From Blattabacterium cuenoti (GTDB lineage: Bacteria > Bacteroidota > Bacteroidia > Flavobacteriales > Blattabacteriaceae): 64,000 nt of DNA. A program made the translations under genes and the position numbers. The notes under the pieces are model-generated. The model was given only the letters and a program-made list of their open reading frames with translations, had not been told where the DNA came from and did no database searches. The DNA is taken from the NCBI RefSeq assembly GCF_014251575.1, contig NZ_CP059191.1, positions 372,001-436,000 of the forward strand. The letters run 5' to 3'. Positions 9,913-17,824 of this stretch are shown in pieces; positions within the stretch are counted from its first letter, which is position 1, and each line of letters begins with the position of its first letter.

Positions 9913-10913
9913 TCAAAAGAATATTAGTTTTAGAAAAAAATCATCCTTTTATTATATACAAACTAAAAAAAGAAGGATTTATTTGTGATGAAAATTATTA
10001 TGACTCAACCGATAAAATTGATATATCTGTATATGATGGGGTCATTTTAAGAAGCAGATTAAAAATAGATAAAAAATTTATTAAAAAAGCTAAAAACTTA
10101 AAATTTATAGCTAGAATTGGATCTGGAATAGAAAACATAGACAAAGATTATGCTTCAAAAAAAGGAATCACTTTAATTTCTTCTCCAGAAGGGAATAAAG
10201 ATGCTGTAGCAGAACATGCAATAGGAATGCTTTTATGTATCATGAACCATATCATTCCTTCTCATCAACAAATTAAAAAAGGAAAATGGGATAGAGAAAA
10301 TAATAGAGGAATGGAAATCATGGGAAAAACAATAGGGATTATTGGATATGGAAATACTGGAAAAGCTTTTGCAAAAAAACTTTCAGGATTTGATGCTAGA
10401 ATATTATGTTATGATATTTTACCTAAAATCGGTGATACTTATGCAATGCAAGTTGACATGAATACAATTTTTAAAAAATCAGACGTAATCAGTTTGCATG
10501 TCCCTTATACAAAAGAAACAAAAGGAATGATTAATTATAATTTTATAAAAAAATTTTACAAGCCTTTTTATTTGATAAATACTTCTCGTGGGGGATGTGT
10601 TCTAACAAATCATTTAGTCAAAGCATTAAGAAACGGAAAAATATATGGAGCTTGTTTAGATGTATTAGAGTATGAAAATTTTTCTTTTGAAAATATTTTT
10701 CATTATCATAAACTTTCAAAAAATTTTTTTGATCTTATTCATTCTAATAAAGTTGTATTAACTCCACATGTTGCTGGATGGACTCAAGAATCAAAATCCA
10801 AGATGGATAAAAAAATTGTCGAAAAAATTCTTTTATTAAACAAACTATTAATTGAAAAAACAATTATACAAAATCCTCACGCTCCAGATAATTACCAAAA
10901 TTCCTATAGATAG
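9909..10913 (+). CDS. serA: D-3-phosphoglycerate dehydrogenase-like 2-hydroxyacid dehydrogenase
   Basis: The 334-residue D-isomer-specific 2-hydroxyacid dehydrogenase has a split catalytic domain (LKFIARIGSGIENID near 75), a Rossmann NAD motif GIIGYGNTGKAFAKKL near 145-160, NTSRGG carrying the catalytic Arg near 226, and TPHVAGW with the catalytic His near 286. It lacks the ACT regulatory domain, as in the short flavobacterial SerA. It would supply phosphohydroxypyruvate for serine, the carbon donor for cysteine. The start overlaps the PBP stop. The last 66 nt overlap the convergent TauE frame; the final residues look unconserved and may be a read-through extension. Confidence 0.85.
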   Translation: MIKRILVLEKNHPFIIYKLKKEGFICDENYYDSTDKIDISVYDGVILRSRLKIDKKFIKKAKNLKFIARIGSGIENIDKDYASKKGITLISSPEGNKDAVAEHAIGMLLCIMNHIIPSHQQIKKGKWDRENNRGMEIMGKTIGIIGYGNTGKAFAKKLSGFDARILCYDILPKIGDTYAMQVDMNTIFKKSDVISLHVPYTKETKGMINYNFIKKFYKPFYLINTSRGGCVLTNHLVKALRNGKIYGACLDVLEYENFSFENIFHYHKLSKNFFDLIHSNKVVLTPHVAGWTQESKSKMDKKIVEKILLLNKLLIEKTIIQNPHAPDNYQNSYR

Positions 10914-11990
10914 AAACATTATTTTTATAGGAAGTTTTCCGGATATTTTTGCTGCTAAAGGCGCAGCAAATAATCCTCCAAAAACTAATCCAAAAACTAT
11001 TCTCCAGTAGTTAATTCCTAATAAAGAAAAAAAAGTTAAAGTACTCGAAAGAGTTACAAAAAATTCAGATAAACTTACCGATCCTATAACATATTTTGGA
11101 GTTCTTCCCTTTGATATTAAAGTGCTAGTAACAAAAGGGCCCCATCTTCCACCTACAAAAGAATCTAAAAAACCTCCACATCCTGCGAGACACCCTATTT
11201 TTCTAGTTTTTTTGTGATCCTTTTTCCATGTCTTTAACAAAATTTTAACTCCAAAGAAAAAAGTATAAGAAGCTAACATTGGTTTAAAAATAGCGTAAGA
11301 CTCTCCAAATTTAGCAAGCAAAAAAGCTACAACAATAGAACCTATAACTCCTGGGATAAGTAATATTTTAAATAATTTTTTGTTTACATTTCCCATCTTA
11401 TAATGACTCAATCCAGATATTCCGCTAGAGAATATCTCTGCAGTATGTATACTAGCACTGATTGAAGGAAGAGGAATTCCAAAAGAAAGTAATATAGTCG
11501 TACAAGTTAGACCATATCCCATTCCTATAGCTCCATCAACGAGTTGTGCAAAAAAACCAGTAAAAATTAGATATAAAAAATTTTGATTAAAATGATCCAA
11601 TATTTTTTGAAAAAAAATACTTTTTGTTAAAAAATGTAGAAAAAAACTGATAGTAATAATAAGTCCTATTATAAAAAACAAATACTTTATTAAATTTTTA
11701 TGTAATTTGTTTTCTTTCAATGATGTTTTTTTGATCAACCATTTTTCAGTTATTAAATTGAGAATTTTCACTTTATATTCAAAATTTCCTTTTAGTTTTT
11801 TTCGTATTTTACACATATTTATCAACACGTCATCTAATTCATGTGGTAAAACATTTATAAAAATTTCTTTCAAACTGTAGGAGACTTTCCGTTAGTAGAA
11901 ATAGCTATCTTTAAATTTCCTTTTTGTACAATAGACCCCATATAAAAATCACAAAGATCAGGAGCATCAGGAACATTAACCAATTTATGG
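10848..11990 (-). pseudogene. 5'-truncated siroheme synthase N-domain / TauE-SafE permease fusion
   Basis: Two frames form one broken gene. From 11989 down to about 11877 the frame reads HKLVNVPDAPDLCDFYMGS, then IAISTNGKSPTV and a stop: the middle of a precorrin-2 dehydrogenase (CysG N-domain). After a frameshift with loss of about four codons, the 341-codon frame ending at 10848 resumes at KEIFINVLPHELDD, completes that domain and runs into a full TauE/SafE permease (about 8 membrane segments, GFFAQLVDGAIGMGYGL, CGGFLDSFVGGRWGP). The first ~105 residues of the dehydrogenase are gone, removed by the same deletion that truncated cysI. The permease half could still be made from TTG 11873 or the ATG about 20 codons later, but this is unproven. 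Confidence 0.8.
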
Positions 11991-12815
11991 ATCTTCAGAA
12001 TCAGAAAAACCAATTACAGTTCCTAACCTAGAATAAGTTTTATAATTACCATGAGTAGTAGATAATCCTCCTCCAACAGATATGTTAAACCCTTTTAAAA
12101 TTTTAGATTTATTGTCAATAATAGCAATTAAACCTATATCATTAGCAAAAACGTCGACATCATTATTAGGAGGGATTGCTATAGAAATTTTGAATTTACT
12201 AGGTAAATAAGTTTCCTTGTAAAGAGGATCTTTTTCTTCTTTTTTTTCATATATCTTATTTCTATCTAACCAAATTTCATAGTAATATTTTGTTTTAGGA
12301 AGTAACATATTGCTAATTTTAGTAGCATAATTCAAAATTTCTTCACGAGAGTATTTACTGTCTATATAGGTACTGCATACCACATTTCTGTTAACATCTC
12401 CACATGTAGCAATAGAATCCAATTGATGAATATCAAAAAATTGAATAGTTGGTTTTATTTTGGATTTTATCAATCCATGTAATTGAATTATTTGTCTAGT
12501 CGTTATTTTGATGACTCCAGTTGAATTTTATTCTGAAATATTATGAATAGATACCCATTGTTTATGATTGATAAGACCTCCTGGAATTCTTAAACGTATC
12601 ATAAAAGAATATAATCTTTCCAGTTTTTTTTTAGATCTCTCTTTTCTTATATCTCTATCATCTTGTTGATAGAACCCATGAAATTTAATAATTACTTGAT
12701 CGTCATCATAAAGACCACCAGATAATTCATTTTGTAAACTATCTATAAGAGTCTCCCTAAGTCCTATGCTTTCTTTTTTTATTTTTTCTTATTTTGTTAT
12801 ACGAGATATTTTCAT
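11985..12815 (-). pseudogene. cysI: Sulfite reductase hemoprotein (CysI), nonsense-mutated and 3'-truncated
   Basis: One reading frame from ATG 12815 encodes recognisable CysI: IKFHGFYQQDDRDIRKER, YSFMIRLRIPGG, ITTRQIIQLHG, CGDVNRNV, IAIPPNNDVDVFANDIGL and VGGGLSTTHGN. It is interrupted by two in-frame TAA codons (12789-12791 and 12528-12530). After about 270 codons homology ends abruptly at GFSDSEDP and the DNA becomes the siroheme synthase remnant. The C-terminal half, with the four cysteines that bind the 4Fe-4S cluster and siroheme, is missing. It starts 31 nt after cysJ. The open 162-codon piece ending at 11985 is a fragment and not a gene of its own. Confidence 0.92.
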
Positions 12816-12846
12816 GTTTACAAAATTGAATTTTTCATCAATTTTT

Positions 12847-14507
12847 TTAGTATACGTCTTTTAAATATCTTCCATGTTTTTTCATTTCTTTCATAAAAGA
12901 TTCTGGATCACATCCTCCTACTTCCTCTATTACACGAAAGATCATTTTTTCAACATCTATGCTCATAGGATTTTTTTTTCCACAAACATAGATATATGCT
13001 CCATTTTTTATCCATGAAAAAAATTCTATTCTATTTTCCCATATTTTATCTTGTACATATATTTTTTTTTCTTGATCTCTAGAGAAAGAGAGACTGATTC
13101 GATTAAGAACTCCTTTTTTTTTCCAATTTTGGATTTCTGTTTGATACAAAAAGTCTGAATAAAAATGTTGATCTCCAAAAAATAGCCAATTTTTCCCTGT
13201 AGCTTCTATAGCTTCTCTTTCATATAAAAAAGAACGAAAAGGAGCTATTCCGGTTCCAGGTCCAATAAGGATTATGTCTTTTTCAGAATTTTTTGGTAAT
13301 CTAAACAATTGATTTCTATAAATAAAAAATGATAATTTTTCTCCTTCCTTTAACTTAGATAAAAAATCAGAGCAATGACCATATACAGTTTCTCCATTCA
13401 ATTGAAAACTATGACGAGATACAGTAATATGTATTTCATTATAATGAGCTTTAGGAGAAGAAGAAATGGAATATAATCTTGGTTTGATAGGTTCCATTAT
13501 TTTTATTAAATCTCTTAATGAAAATTCCTTTTTTATAGGAAATTCTTTTAAAAGATCAATCAGTTTCCATTTTCGATTAGAAGGAATATTTTTTTTTTCA
13601 GATAAAAAAGAATATTTTTTTAAAAAATTATCTGATAAATTAAAAATATTAAATTCTTTCTTGAAAAGATTAAATATATTTATTTCAGATCCTTTTTTTT
13701 TTCTATTTCTTAAAATATATTCTATAATATCATGTATTTCATTCGAAGAATTTTCAGGAAACACTCCTATAGAATCACCCGGAAGATATTTAACTTCATT
13801 TTGAACAGAAATTTCAACATGATAAATTTCTTTATTAGACCCTCTTTTTTTATCACTTAAAAGGATATTATTCAAAACTTTTCCACATATTTTTTCCCTT
13901 CTATTTTCTGTATTTTTTTCATATTTTTTTTTTGAAAAAAATTCAAAATTTCTAAAAACCATTTATTTGCTTTTTCTTCATAATCGACATCACATTTATG
14001 CAATGGAACGATTCTGATTGCTCCTATGTTATTCAAACGTTTATCTACATCGACCCCCGCTTTACAAAAGTAAGAATAAGATTTATCTCCTAAAGCTAAT
14101 ACACTGTATTTTAAATGATTAAGATTAATTTTTTGATTTTCATGAATAAAATCAAAAAAATCTTTTGCGGAAGAAGGTGGTTCTCCTTCTCCATGTGTAC
14201 TAATTATTACGAATAAATAATCTTCTTTTTCCAAATCTTGCAAACGATATTGATCTAAACTCATCAATTTCATTTGCAATTTTTTATTTTTTGCTTTTTG
14301 ATAAATGTCAAAAGCTAAATTTTTGGCATTTCCTGTCTCTGTCCCATAAACTAACGTAATTTTTTCCTCTTTATTTAATTCTTTAGAAGATTTTTTAGTA
14401 TTAGAAGATAATAATCCAGACATATAGCCACACATCCAAATAATCTCTTCTATAGAGGATTCTTTGATTAAATTAAAAAATGTTTTTTTATTTGATTCAG
14501 ATAACAT
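12847..14507 (-). pseudogene. cysJ: Sulfite reductase flavoprotein (CysJ), frameshifted at an A10 tract
   Basis: Two overlapping frames are halves of one protein. The first (ATG 14507) carries the flavodoxin domain: TLVYGTETGNAKNLA, STHGEGEPPSSAKDFF, LALGDKSYSYFC. The second, ending at 12847, carries the FAD/NADPH reductase: LPGDSIGVFPENS, RLYSISSSP, GPGTGIAPFRSFL, YVCGKKNPMS. In the overlap both frames encode similar Lys-rich peptides, which places the shift at the T10 run 13924-13933 (A10 in coding sense). One extra A, or two fewer, restores a continuous flavoprotein. A second A10 tract (13589-13598) is in frame. The partner CysI is dead, so even a rescued product would lack its usual role. 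Confidence 0.88.
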
Positions 14508-14542
14508 TTTATTCAATTTTATAAAAGAAAATATTAATAAAT

Positions 14543-14703
14543 ATCACTCAAAATAATTTTTTTTCTCTTTGAAATAATGATGTAAAACCACTATTTTACC
14601 TACAATGACTAAAAAGAAGGAGACATAAAATGATTCAAAGCTTTTATAGTAATCAAATCAGGATCTCCTGGTCCTGCTGAAAAATTACTTTTTTTGTTAT
14701 CAT
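14543..14703 (-). pseudogene. cobA: Uroporphyrinogen-III C-methyltransferase (SUMT/CobA) remnant
   Basis: From ATG 14703 the frame reads VIFSAGPGDPDLITIKAL, matching the SUMT N-terminal motif (VGAGPGDPxLITxKA), and stops at 14608. Another frame from 14605 to 14543 gives IVGKIVVLHHYF, which loosely resembles the later VGK..G.H segment, so an internal deletion is likely. The rest of the ~250-residue enzyme is absent. The ATG overlaps the cysK TGA (ATGA), preserving the ancestral operon junction. The intact enzyme would make precorrin-2 for siroheme, the cofactor of sulfite reductase. Confidence 0.8.
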
Positions 14704-15611
14704 AAAAAAAGATTTTCAACTGAAAGATATCTTTCTCCAGTATCATAATTAAACGTCAATATTATGGATTTTTCAGAAAAATTAGATAATTGTTGATCTA
14801 TAGCAGATAGAACCGCTCCTGTAGAGATTCCAACAAGAATTCCTTCTTTTTTTGCTATTTTACGAACAAAAGTAAAAGCATCTTCTTTTGAAACTAAAAA
14901 AGATCCATCTAATATTTTTACATTCAAAATGGAAGGGATAAAACCTGCACCTAATCCTTGTAAAGAATGCGGATTTGATTCGCCTCCAAATATCACTGGA
15001 GATTCCACAGGTTCCACAGAAAAAATTTTTAGATTAGGATATTTATTTTTTAATACTTCTCCTATACCAGTAATATGTCCACCAGTTCCAACTCCTGTAA
15101 TAAAATAATCTATTCCTTCAGGAAAAGCATCTATGATTTCTTTTGCTGTTGTATTTTTATGAATATTTGGATTAGATATATTATCAAATTGTTTAGGCAT
15201 CCAGGAATTAGAAATTGTATCAATTAGTTCTTCTGCTTTTTTAATAGCACCATTCATTCCTTTTTCTCTTGGAGTTAAAACAAATTTTGCTCCAAAAATA
15301 GAAAATAATTTTCTTCTTTCAATACTCATAGATTCTGGCATGACTAAAATAAGACGATAATCTTTCACAGCACAAACCATAGCTAATCCTATTCCTGTAT
15401 TTCCAGAAGTAGGTTCTATGATAATATCTCCTTTATGGAGGGCTCCTTTTTTTTCAGCATCTTCTATCATAGATAGTGCTATTCTATCTTTTATACTTCC
15501 TCCTGGATTATTTTTTTCTAATTTCATCCAAATTTGGTGATTCGGATATAATTTATTAAGACGAACATGAGGTGTATTTCCAATAGTTTTTAAAATACTA
15601 TCAAATTTCAT
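14700..15611 (-). CDS. cysK: Cysteine synthase (O-acetylserine sulfhydrylase)
   Basis: The 303-residue fold-type II PLP enzyme is full length and uninterrupted. [13 protein letters not shown] near 33-45 contains the PLP lysine. [12 protein letters not shown] near 67-78 and [15 protein letters not shown] near 175 bind substrate and PLP phosphate, and [11 protein letters not shown] lies near the C-terminus. It joins O-acetylserine and sulfide to give cysteine. It lies 17 nt downstream of cysE, its substrate supplier and likely complex partner. It is one of only two intact genes in this operon, so selection for cysteine synthesis probably persists although the reductive branch is broken. Confidence 0.96.
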
Positions 15612-15628
15612 TTTTTTTCTTTTTTTTA

Positions 15629-16453
15629 TTATATCATAAAATTAATAGGATCAGGAAAAGGACTATTATTTCTCATTTTTATTTCGCTTTTTTGATATAC
15701 TATAGAAAAAGGAGGAACACTTCGTGTTAACCAAACATTTCCTCCAATTACACTATCATGACCTACTATAGTTTTTCCTCCTAAAATCGTAGCCCCCGCA
15801 TAAATAGTAACTTGATCTTCTATAGTAGGATGACGTTTTTGATTAGATAATTTTTTATCCACATGAATAGCTCCCAAAGTAACTCCTTGATATATTTTAA
15901 CTTTATTTCCTATTTTTGTACTGGAACCTATAACTATTCCTGTTCCATGATCAATTGCAAAAGATGTCCCTATTTCTGCAGATGCATGAATATCTACTCC
16001 TGTTTTACTGTGTGCATATTCTGTAATCAATCTTGGAATAATTGGAATTTTCTGAATCCAAAATTGATGAGCTATTCTGTATAATGCAGTAGCGAAAAAA
16101 CCAGGGTAAGAAAGAAAAATTTCTTCTACAACTGTTGCAGCAGGATCAGATTCCAAGATAGCATAAGCGTCTATTATCAATGTTTGATAAATATTGGGAA
16201 GTTCTTCAAAAAATTTTTTAGAAAGATTATTAGAATTTTTTTGATCAATATTTAATTCAAGAAAAATTTCATATAAAAAATTAAAGAGTTTTTTATAATT
16301 CTTTTTGAGAAAAACTTTATTTTGTAAAGTATATCGATCAGAAGTAAATAGAAAATTAAATAAAGCTTCTATAAATTCCTCAGATTTTTTTTTATTAGGA
16401 AAAGGATTTCTTTTTTTGTTATCTTCAAATATAATATTTAAAAAATCTAACAT
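15629..16453 (-). CDS. cysE: Serine O-acetyltransferase
   Basis: The 274-residue protein has a helical N-terminal region (about 1-150, including [35 protein letters not shown]) and a left-handed beta-helix of hexapeptide repeats ([54 protein letters not shown]). The His of DHGTG is a conserved catalytic-region residue. It acetylates serine to O-acetylserine for CysK. It sits 14 nt downstream of the cysHN chimera and 17 nt upstream of cysK, and no disruption is seen. Confidence 0.95.
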
Positions 16454-16467
16454 TTATTTAATTTAAT

Positions 16468-17739
16468 TTATTGAATCATACAAGCAGCCACTGTAGAATA
16501 ACTTGTTTCATCTATTAAAATGCAAGATCCATTTTCTTTTATTTTTTTATAAGGATCATGTGGAACTGGTACAGATGTTTTTACTTTCACTTTAACTAAA
16601 TCATTCAACACAGCATGATCAGGTGTATTTTCTTTTTTTAGAGTATTCACATCTATACGATAAAAAATATTTTTAATCCGAACTGTAACTTGAAAACAGT
16701 GAATTTGAAATAAATACTGATTTCCCATTTTTAATGGTTTATTTGACATCCAGAAAATAATCATCTCAAATTCTTGAGAAAAAATAGGAAGATCATCATC
16801 TTTTTTCACTATAAGATTTCCACGAGAAACGTCTATTTCATCTTCTAAATACATAACTATACTCTGTGGATAAAATCCTTCCTCTACTCTTAATCCACAT
16901 TTTTCTATTTTTTTTATAAATGTATGATTTTCATATGGATAAATGATAATTTCATCTCCAACTTTATATATTCCACTAATAATTTTTCCAGCATATCCAC
17001 GAGATGTATCATACTTATTACTGGAACGAATGACATATTGAACTGTATATATAGAAGCTTCTAAATAAGTTTTTCTTTGAATCACAACATTTTCCAATAA
17101 AGAAAAAAGACTCGGTCCAGTATACCATTTCATATGATATGATTTATCTACTACATTATCTCCATTTTTTGCACTAATTGGAATCATGTCTACGTCATTT
17201 AAACCTACTGGATGATATTTAATCAAATGATATTTTGAATCCCATTCCAAATCATTCAATTTTTTTCTTTCTACAGAATGTTCTGCACGCAATCCAGTGA
17301 CCCATACAAAATTTCCTTGTAAAGCTCTTTTTAGGGGTTCTACTTTGCGTAAAAAACAACATTTTATTCTATTTTTTACATTATCATAAAATGAATTTGG
17401 TCCATTTTTTGACAAAAAATCCTCTAATTTATCTTGATTAGGATAATAAGCAGAAATAGAATATTCATAAAATTTATTTGTATCTTTCCAAACTTTATAA
17501 GTTTCTTCAAACAACCTTCCTGTATCTAAAGTGAATATTTTTATGGAAATTTCATTTGATAAAATAAAATGAGAAATTAATTGATCCTCAATATTCAAGA
17601 TTGTAGAAAAAACGATTTTTCCTGTAAAAAAATTTGAAAGAGCTCTTAATTTATCCTCTACAGAAAAAGAGGACTTGATTTCTTTTGAAAGATCAGATAA
17701 ACATTCTTGTGATGAAATTTTCCATTTCATATTTTTCAT
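16468..17739 (-). pseudogene. In-frame deletion chimera: CysH N-terminal region fused to CysN C-terminal region
   Basis: The open 423-codon frame is two unrelated halves. Residues 1 to ~177 match PAPS/APS reductase (IVFSTILNIEDQLI, FTLDTGRLFEET, NRIKCCFLRKVEPLKRAL, WVTGLRAEHSVERKKLN, LIKYHP). From ~178 the protein matches sulfate adenylyltransferase subunit 1 from its G5 motif onward (DMIPISAKNGDNVV, MKWYTGPSL, VQYVIRSS, RGYAGKIISG, DEIDVSRGNLIV). Missing are the CysH C-terminus with its catalytic Cys region, all of cysD, and the CysN P-loop, switch and NKxD motifs. The deletion junction is near 17195-17210. Neither activity should survive. The frame is open by chance or recency. Confidence 0.9.
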
Positions 17740-17743
17740 TCAT

Positions 17744-17799
17744 TACCATAAAAACAAAAAACCCTTCGAATCATTCAAAGGGATGGTAAATAGATACCA
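17744..17799 (-). promoter_or_regulatory. Attenuator-like leader structure upstream of the sulfur operon
   Basis: On the minus strand, just before the first operon gene, a 9-bp stem with one mismatch (17762-17782, arms CCCTT...AAGGG) is followed by T6-G-T5, the form of a Rho-independent terminator. Segment 17783-17788 (ATGGTA on the plus strand) can pair either with 17795-17799 upstream or with 17744-17749 downstream, which encloses the terminator-like hairpin. Such mutually exclusive pairing is the hallmark of attenuation. The ligand or signal is unknown, and no SAM riboswitch consensus was recognised. Confidence 0.4.
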
Positions 17800-17816
17800 A
17801 ATACATTCTTGTTACA

Positions 17817-17824
17817 CAAATATA
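17817..17824 (-). promoter_or_regulatory. Candidate -7 box for the sulfur operon (TATATTTG)
   Basis: The minus strand reads TATATTTG, an exact TAnnTTTG match, 77 nt before the chimera's ATG and just upstream of the folded leader. A TTTG lies at 17854-17857, but its 29-nt spacing is too long for a good -33 element. Confidence 0.4.

Follow-up and report, generated by a model that had tools for sequence, protein, structure and literature searches.

A probable in-frame deletion scar joining cysH to cysN in a decaying sulfate-assimilation operon of Blattabacterium cuenoti

Results

The chimeric frame

The window, by which we mean the whole 64,000-nt stretch analysed, comes from the 633,713 bp, single-contig genome of a strain (here G000) of Blattabacterium, an obligate endosymbiont of cockroaches. 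At the head of its sulfate-assimilation cluster lies a frame of 423 codons that the ORF listing reports with zero internal stops, and whose two halves belong to different enzymes (Table 1). In separate NCBIfam searches, residues 10–178 match phosphoadenylyl-sulfate reductase (NF002537, E 2e-36, profile positions 12–177 of 244), and residues 177–423 match CysN profiles beginning at about profile position 166–194 and reaching the last position (E 2e-58 to 2e-66; for TIGR02034, positions 166–406 of 406), with domains II–III of CysN complete. Among solved structures, those nearest in sequence are 2goy, an APS reductase, for residues 26–170 and 1zun chain B, sulfate adenylate transferase subunit 1, for residues 184–422. 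Breakpoints from blastn comparison with relatives place the last cysH base at window position 17210 and the first cysN base at 17209, inside a hybrid codon. A first-pass annotation made from the window alone had described an uninterrupted in-frame fusion with CysH at residues 1–177 and CysN from about 178, and on both the layout and the open frame it was exact.

Table 1. Features of the sulfate-assimilation cluster in the window
Feature	Position	Strand	Evidence
Operon leader: -7 motif and terminator-like hairpin, T-run	17762..17824	minus	comparison of upstream regions
CysH'::'CysN chimeric ORF, 423 codons	16468..17739	minus	ORF list; Pfam/NCBIfam profiles
cysH 5' part: residues 1–176 and two bases of codon 177; APS-reductase type	17210..17739	minus	NCBIfam, sequence comparison
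Deletion junction in hybrid codon 177 (CC from cysH, A from cysN; Pro)	17209..17211	minus	blastn breakpoints, sequences
cysN 3' part: all of CysN from residue 172 (G017 numbering) onward, with G5 motif and domains II–III	16468..17209	minus	NCBIfam, sequence comparison
cysE, intact, 14 bp downstream of chimera	15629..16453	minus	ORF list, NCBIfam, comparison
cysK, intact	14700..15611	minus	ORF list, NCBIfam, comparison
SUMT (uroporphyrinogen-III C-methyltransferase) remnant, 606 bp internal deletion	14547..14680	minus	alignment to relatives
cysJ, full length, split into two ORFs	12847..14516	minus	ORF list, comparison
cysI remnant, residues 1–275 of 557	11991..12815	minus	alignment to relatives
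Precorrin-2 dehydrogenase (CysG N-terminal type) remnant, residues ~109 to end, broken	11694..11995	minus	comparison

The deletion and the ancestral state

In the nearest relatives on a 29-strain tree (G062, G017 and G069) the genes cysH, cysD, cysN, cysE, cysK, SUMT, cysJ and cysI are intact and stand in that order, and the same intact order is seen in further strains. Aligned to relatives by blastn, the chimeric ORF has a single break, at which 1,672 bp are missing relative to G062 and 1,673 bp relative to G017, the missing stretch consisting of the 3' end of cysH, the whole of cysD and the 5' end of cysN. Because there is one clean junction and the sister strains carry an intact cysH-cysD-cysN, the original proposal of a deletion that removed cysD holds. 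What has changed is its extent, which is now set, and the breadth of the damage, which goes beyond the ORF and covers the entire sulfate-to-sulfide cluster (window ~11694–17739).

No other copy of the lost parts was found. With CysD of G017 as query the G000 genome gives zero matches, while G062 and G069 each have a CysD 93–94% identical to it; a search of the strain's own genome found no second copy of the CysH C-terminus, and the CysN N-terminus finds only ordinary translation-type GTPases there. None of the sister strains carries the junction, and neither finding named in the first-pass annotation as overturning its reading, cysD being present after all or an old fusion in a sister strain, was made. 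The single deletion of ~1.67 kb most likely took place after the G000 lineage split from its sister G062, and the two frames matched by luck, with a chance of about 1 in 3. The junction sequence (...AAATATCATCC followed directly by AGTAGGTTTAAA...) has no microhomology, and on that ground a microhomology-mediated deletion was rejected for this join.

Loss of the catalytic motifs

The deletion takes with it motifs that are required for catalysis in both families. Using G017 numbering, CysH has lost the CxxC at 209–212, which serves the [4Fe-4S] cluster, and the C-terminal catalytic Cys238 (ECGLH); the CC at 127–128 is retained, so that the CC...CxxC set of cluster ligands of APS-reductase type is incomplete. 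From CysN, GSVDNGKS at 10 (G1, GxxxxGKS), DAPGH at 91 (G3, DxPGH) and NKMD at 146 (G4, NKxD) are gone, and the only GTPase motif left is G5, PISA (187). The loss of both catalytic cores, first pointed out for the C-terminal Cys of CysH and the P-loop of CysN, is borne out in that both fall within the deleted stretch. The part of CysH that survives has also changed: the PP-loop motif FSTSFNxED of relatives, expected of an APS/PAPS reductase, reads FSTILNIED in the chimera. Specifically, S47I and F48L alter PP-loop sites invariant among the 8 intact strains, S47 being invariant also in the free-living relatives compared, and S47I and R230I fall at sites invariant across all relatives compared. 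If made, the chimera is not expected, judging from its sequence, to act as an APS reductase, because it has no CxxC, no catalytic Cys and a mutated PP-loop, nor to act as a sulfate adenylyltransferase, because it has no GTPase core and the genome encodes no CysD as partner.

Decay of the rest of the cluster

Downstream of the intact cysE and cysK, the cluster is broken in several ways. The SUMT deletion sits at an 8-bp microhomology (AATCATTT), which fits a microhomology-mediated event, and is followed by a frameshift and, a short way downstream, a stop. In cysJ the split comes from one base missing from an A-tract near 13920–13930; the missing base may be a sequencing error, be rescued by slippage or be truly lost. 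The cysI remnant has two in-frame TAA codons and is truncated by a deletion of 1,172 bp that reaches into the precorrin-2 dehydrogenase gene. The damage thus touches siroheme supply, sulfite reductase and APS formation alike. With SUMT, precorrin-2 dehydrogenase and cysI broken and cysJ frameshifted, the known route of sulfate reduction is closed, and selection therefore no longer acts on the upstream genes. A long chimeric frame results from just one of the three large deletions, that between cysH and cysN: the cysI deletion runs into an immediate stop after the join, and the SUMT deletion is a multiple of three, yet lies within a remnant broken by other changes.

Two further observations concern this part of the cluster. 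In the cysI-lacking strains checked (loci L077–L098) cysJ is full length with its sulfite reductase partner gone, and such retention suggests that CysJ may have another role. A second in-frame read-through occupies window 10848–11873 (minus), running from the last ~59 residues of precorrin-2 dehydrogenase into a TauE/SafE-type transporter whose frame is still open; in G069 the two genes are separate and adjacent (L076, 13807–14433 and 14442–15290). The TauE/SafE-type part had no match in the regions examined of the other strains checked, which may end short of the locus.

The character of these lesions bears on whether the chimera might be an assembly or sequencing artefact, with cysD and its flanks really present. 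The damage to cysJ, a change in the length of a homopolymer, affects an error-prone kind of site and would suit such an account. However, the genome is a single contig with no collapse-prone repeat at the junction, and cysD and the other missing parts were found nowhere in it; the lesions in cysI and SUMT are independent and of other kinds, and the surviving cysH and cysN parts show accelerated amino-acid change (see below). We consider an artefact very unlikely.

Comparison across the genus and the class

To place the chimera among its relatives we used it as query against 48 congeners with genomes of about 0.5–0.64 Mb. Intact cysH and cysN were found in 8 of the 48 and fragments in three (G060, G071 and G066), and in the other 37 there was no match at E 1e-3. 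On the 29-strain tree G000 is nested among intact strains, with G062 as its sister (support 0.988), and assuming loss without regain at least six independent losses of cysH/cysN are needed. The fusion itself was absent from all 48 congeners. In a class sample of 119 genomes its two parts match separate places and only G000 has them in a single frame; a scan of genome contigs with the fusion protein gave no relative. An ancient fusion, which was considered, is left unsupported by its absence from both the congeners and the class sample.

The strains that have lost the genes show what becomes of the region. The space 5' of cysE, originally about 3.1 kb, has contracted, in the extreme to 0.1 kb, in some cases with crumbs of cysH or cysN, and the chimera represents an early stage of the same operon erosion. 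An independent scar is present in G071 (L091, 5659–6126), with cysH fragments and then cysN fragments (residues ~85–149 and 392–417) directly upstream of cysE. The gene cysE was detected in 49 of 49 strains, almost always intact. In G007 (L085), unlike every other strain checked, cysE consists only of broken pieces, and the stretch examined yielded no cysK.

Substitutions in the chimera

For the substitution pattern we counted as lineage-specific any codon differing in one of G000, G062, G017 and G069 where the other three agree. On this count 15 nonsynonymous and 4 synonymous codons fall in the chimera, small numbers that may pool changes from before and after the deletion. The same regions in G062 and G017 together have 17:26 (Fisher p=0.006 against the chimera), and cysE, cysK and icd in G000 itself have 12:16 (p=0.018), with cysE and cysK together contributing 4 nonsynonymous and 6 synonymous changes. 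A ratio of 15:4 is near what the numbers of nonsynonymous and synonymous sites would give, these standing at about 4:1 in the cysH part. The chimera evolves as if unconstrained, showing the relaxed constraint of a pseudogene or deletion scar.

Some 19 or more lineage-specific codon changes have not closed the frame, which tells mildly against a scar. In simulations that assumed an AT-biased spectrum and ignored indels, about 22% of such ORFs survive 19 random substitutions unbroken and 13% survive 25, so the open frame is only mildly lucky and not decisive.

These results also bear on a functional fusion retained for some new or partial function, such as CysN domains II–III carried on a CysH-like domain. 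An uninterrupted frame of this length and the completeness of domains II–III are what such a protein would have. Set against them are the near-neutral nonsynonymous:synonymous ratio, the altered PP-loop and changed invariant sites (S47I, R230I), the occurrence in a single strain and the broken state of the remaining pathway, and we regard a functional fusion as extremely improbable. A transient accident and a retained fusion had been left side by side in the first-pass annotation; the 15:4 changes, the broken pathway and the restriction to one strain speak for the former and against the latter.

The leader and the sparing of cysE-cysK

Upstream of cysH on the minus strand there is a Bacteroidetes-type -7 motif, TATATTTG, at 17824–17817, followed by a terminator-like hairpin (CCCTTTGAATGATTCGAAGGG, then T's; stem 17782–17762) about 20 bases before the start codon. 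Intact strains have a -7-like motif, with hairpin and T's in a subset, ahead of cysH, and most of the cysHDN-less strains examined have it ahead of cysE. The leader as a whole is conserved in most intact strains and still lies 5' of cysE in several cysHDN-less ones, and related leaders occur at loci L075, L031, L076, L034, L092, L077, L083, L091, L089, L094 and L095. By its sequence it looks like an attenuator; an Rfam search of the region returned only a chance match under the gathering score.

We infer that the promoter and cysEK are retained, with the deletions falling between them, and the sparing of both probably explains where the deletion in G000 ends. A continuing need to make cysteine from sulfide may be the reason for their retention. 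Strain Pam of Periplaneta americana, which is without cysN, cysD and cysI, was modelled as taking up hydrogen sulfide (PMC3287516), in agreement with the retention of promoter and cysEK here. Since the operon promoter and cysE-cysK are spared, the chimera is probably still transcribed en route to cysEK.

Such an arrangement raises the question of whether the frame was kept by selection for translation-coupled expression of cysE-cysK, in which case a stop in the chimera would bring polarity and in-frame deletions would be favoured. The cysE start lies only 14 bp past the chimera stop, cysE was detected in every strain and is seldom broken, the cysH promoter motif is kept 5' of it in most cysHDN-less strains, and the frame is open although its substitutions look unconstrained. 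However, in the cysHDN-less strains examined cysE persists without any upstream ORF longer than about 90 codons, and the upstream remnants of G060 and G071 contain stops or frameshifts, so cysE can be kept with no open frame ahead of it. Selection for coupling therefore seems distinctly unlikely to us. Taken more broadly, the idea that the chimera is translated and kept for the use of its open frame or its CysN barrel domains, most plausibly as a translated leader protecting cysE-cysK expression after the loss of sulfate reduction, is also very unlikely.

Discussion

The substitution pattern, the broken partners and the presence of the fusion in no other genome searched favour an accident over a retained fusion. 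With high confidence we read the chimera as a recent, strain-specific and short-lived scar of a chance in-frame deletion in a decaying sulfate-assimilation operon, a pseudogene that still looks like a gene rather than a functioning enzyme. It offers a snapshot of early operon erosion in an obligate symbiont, in which one deletion has left an uninterrupted ORF that can be annotated. Automatic annotation would probably name it a sulfate adenylyltransferase or a reductase and so ascribe to the strain a pathway step that it lacks, which calls for caution when the presence and absence of metabolic genes are counted in reduced genomes. An in-frame scar is ordinary for such genomes, but this is a clear example; literature searches on known scars of this kind from endosymbionts brought up nothing specific.

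Compared with the families from which it derives, CysH (TIGR02055, thioredoxin-dependent APS reductase) and CysN (TIGR02034), the chimera has halves 84–90% identical to the intact proteins of its closest relatives, but both are incomplete and each lacks catalytic parts. It resembles CysNC (CysN with APS kinase, PRK05506) in that a CysN part shares one frame with another enzyme of the pathway. The difference is that CysNC retains both catalytic cores, whereas the chimera is cut through both.

The closest parallels are found within the genus itself. In strain Pam, cysH and cysJ are described as isolated (PMC3287516), and in strain BPja cysDCHI are reported lost (PMC6039017); the abstract and the body of the latter paper conflict over whether BPja or BPfu is the keeper of a complete sulfate pathway. 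Unlike the decay in these two accounts, that in the present strain involves a single in-frame deletion fusing cysH to cysN, a junction of which the consulted passages of both papers make no mention. In other respects the likeness is close, since the same operon and the same pathway are affected, the decay is stepwise, and cysE and cysK are retained.
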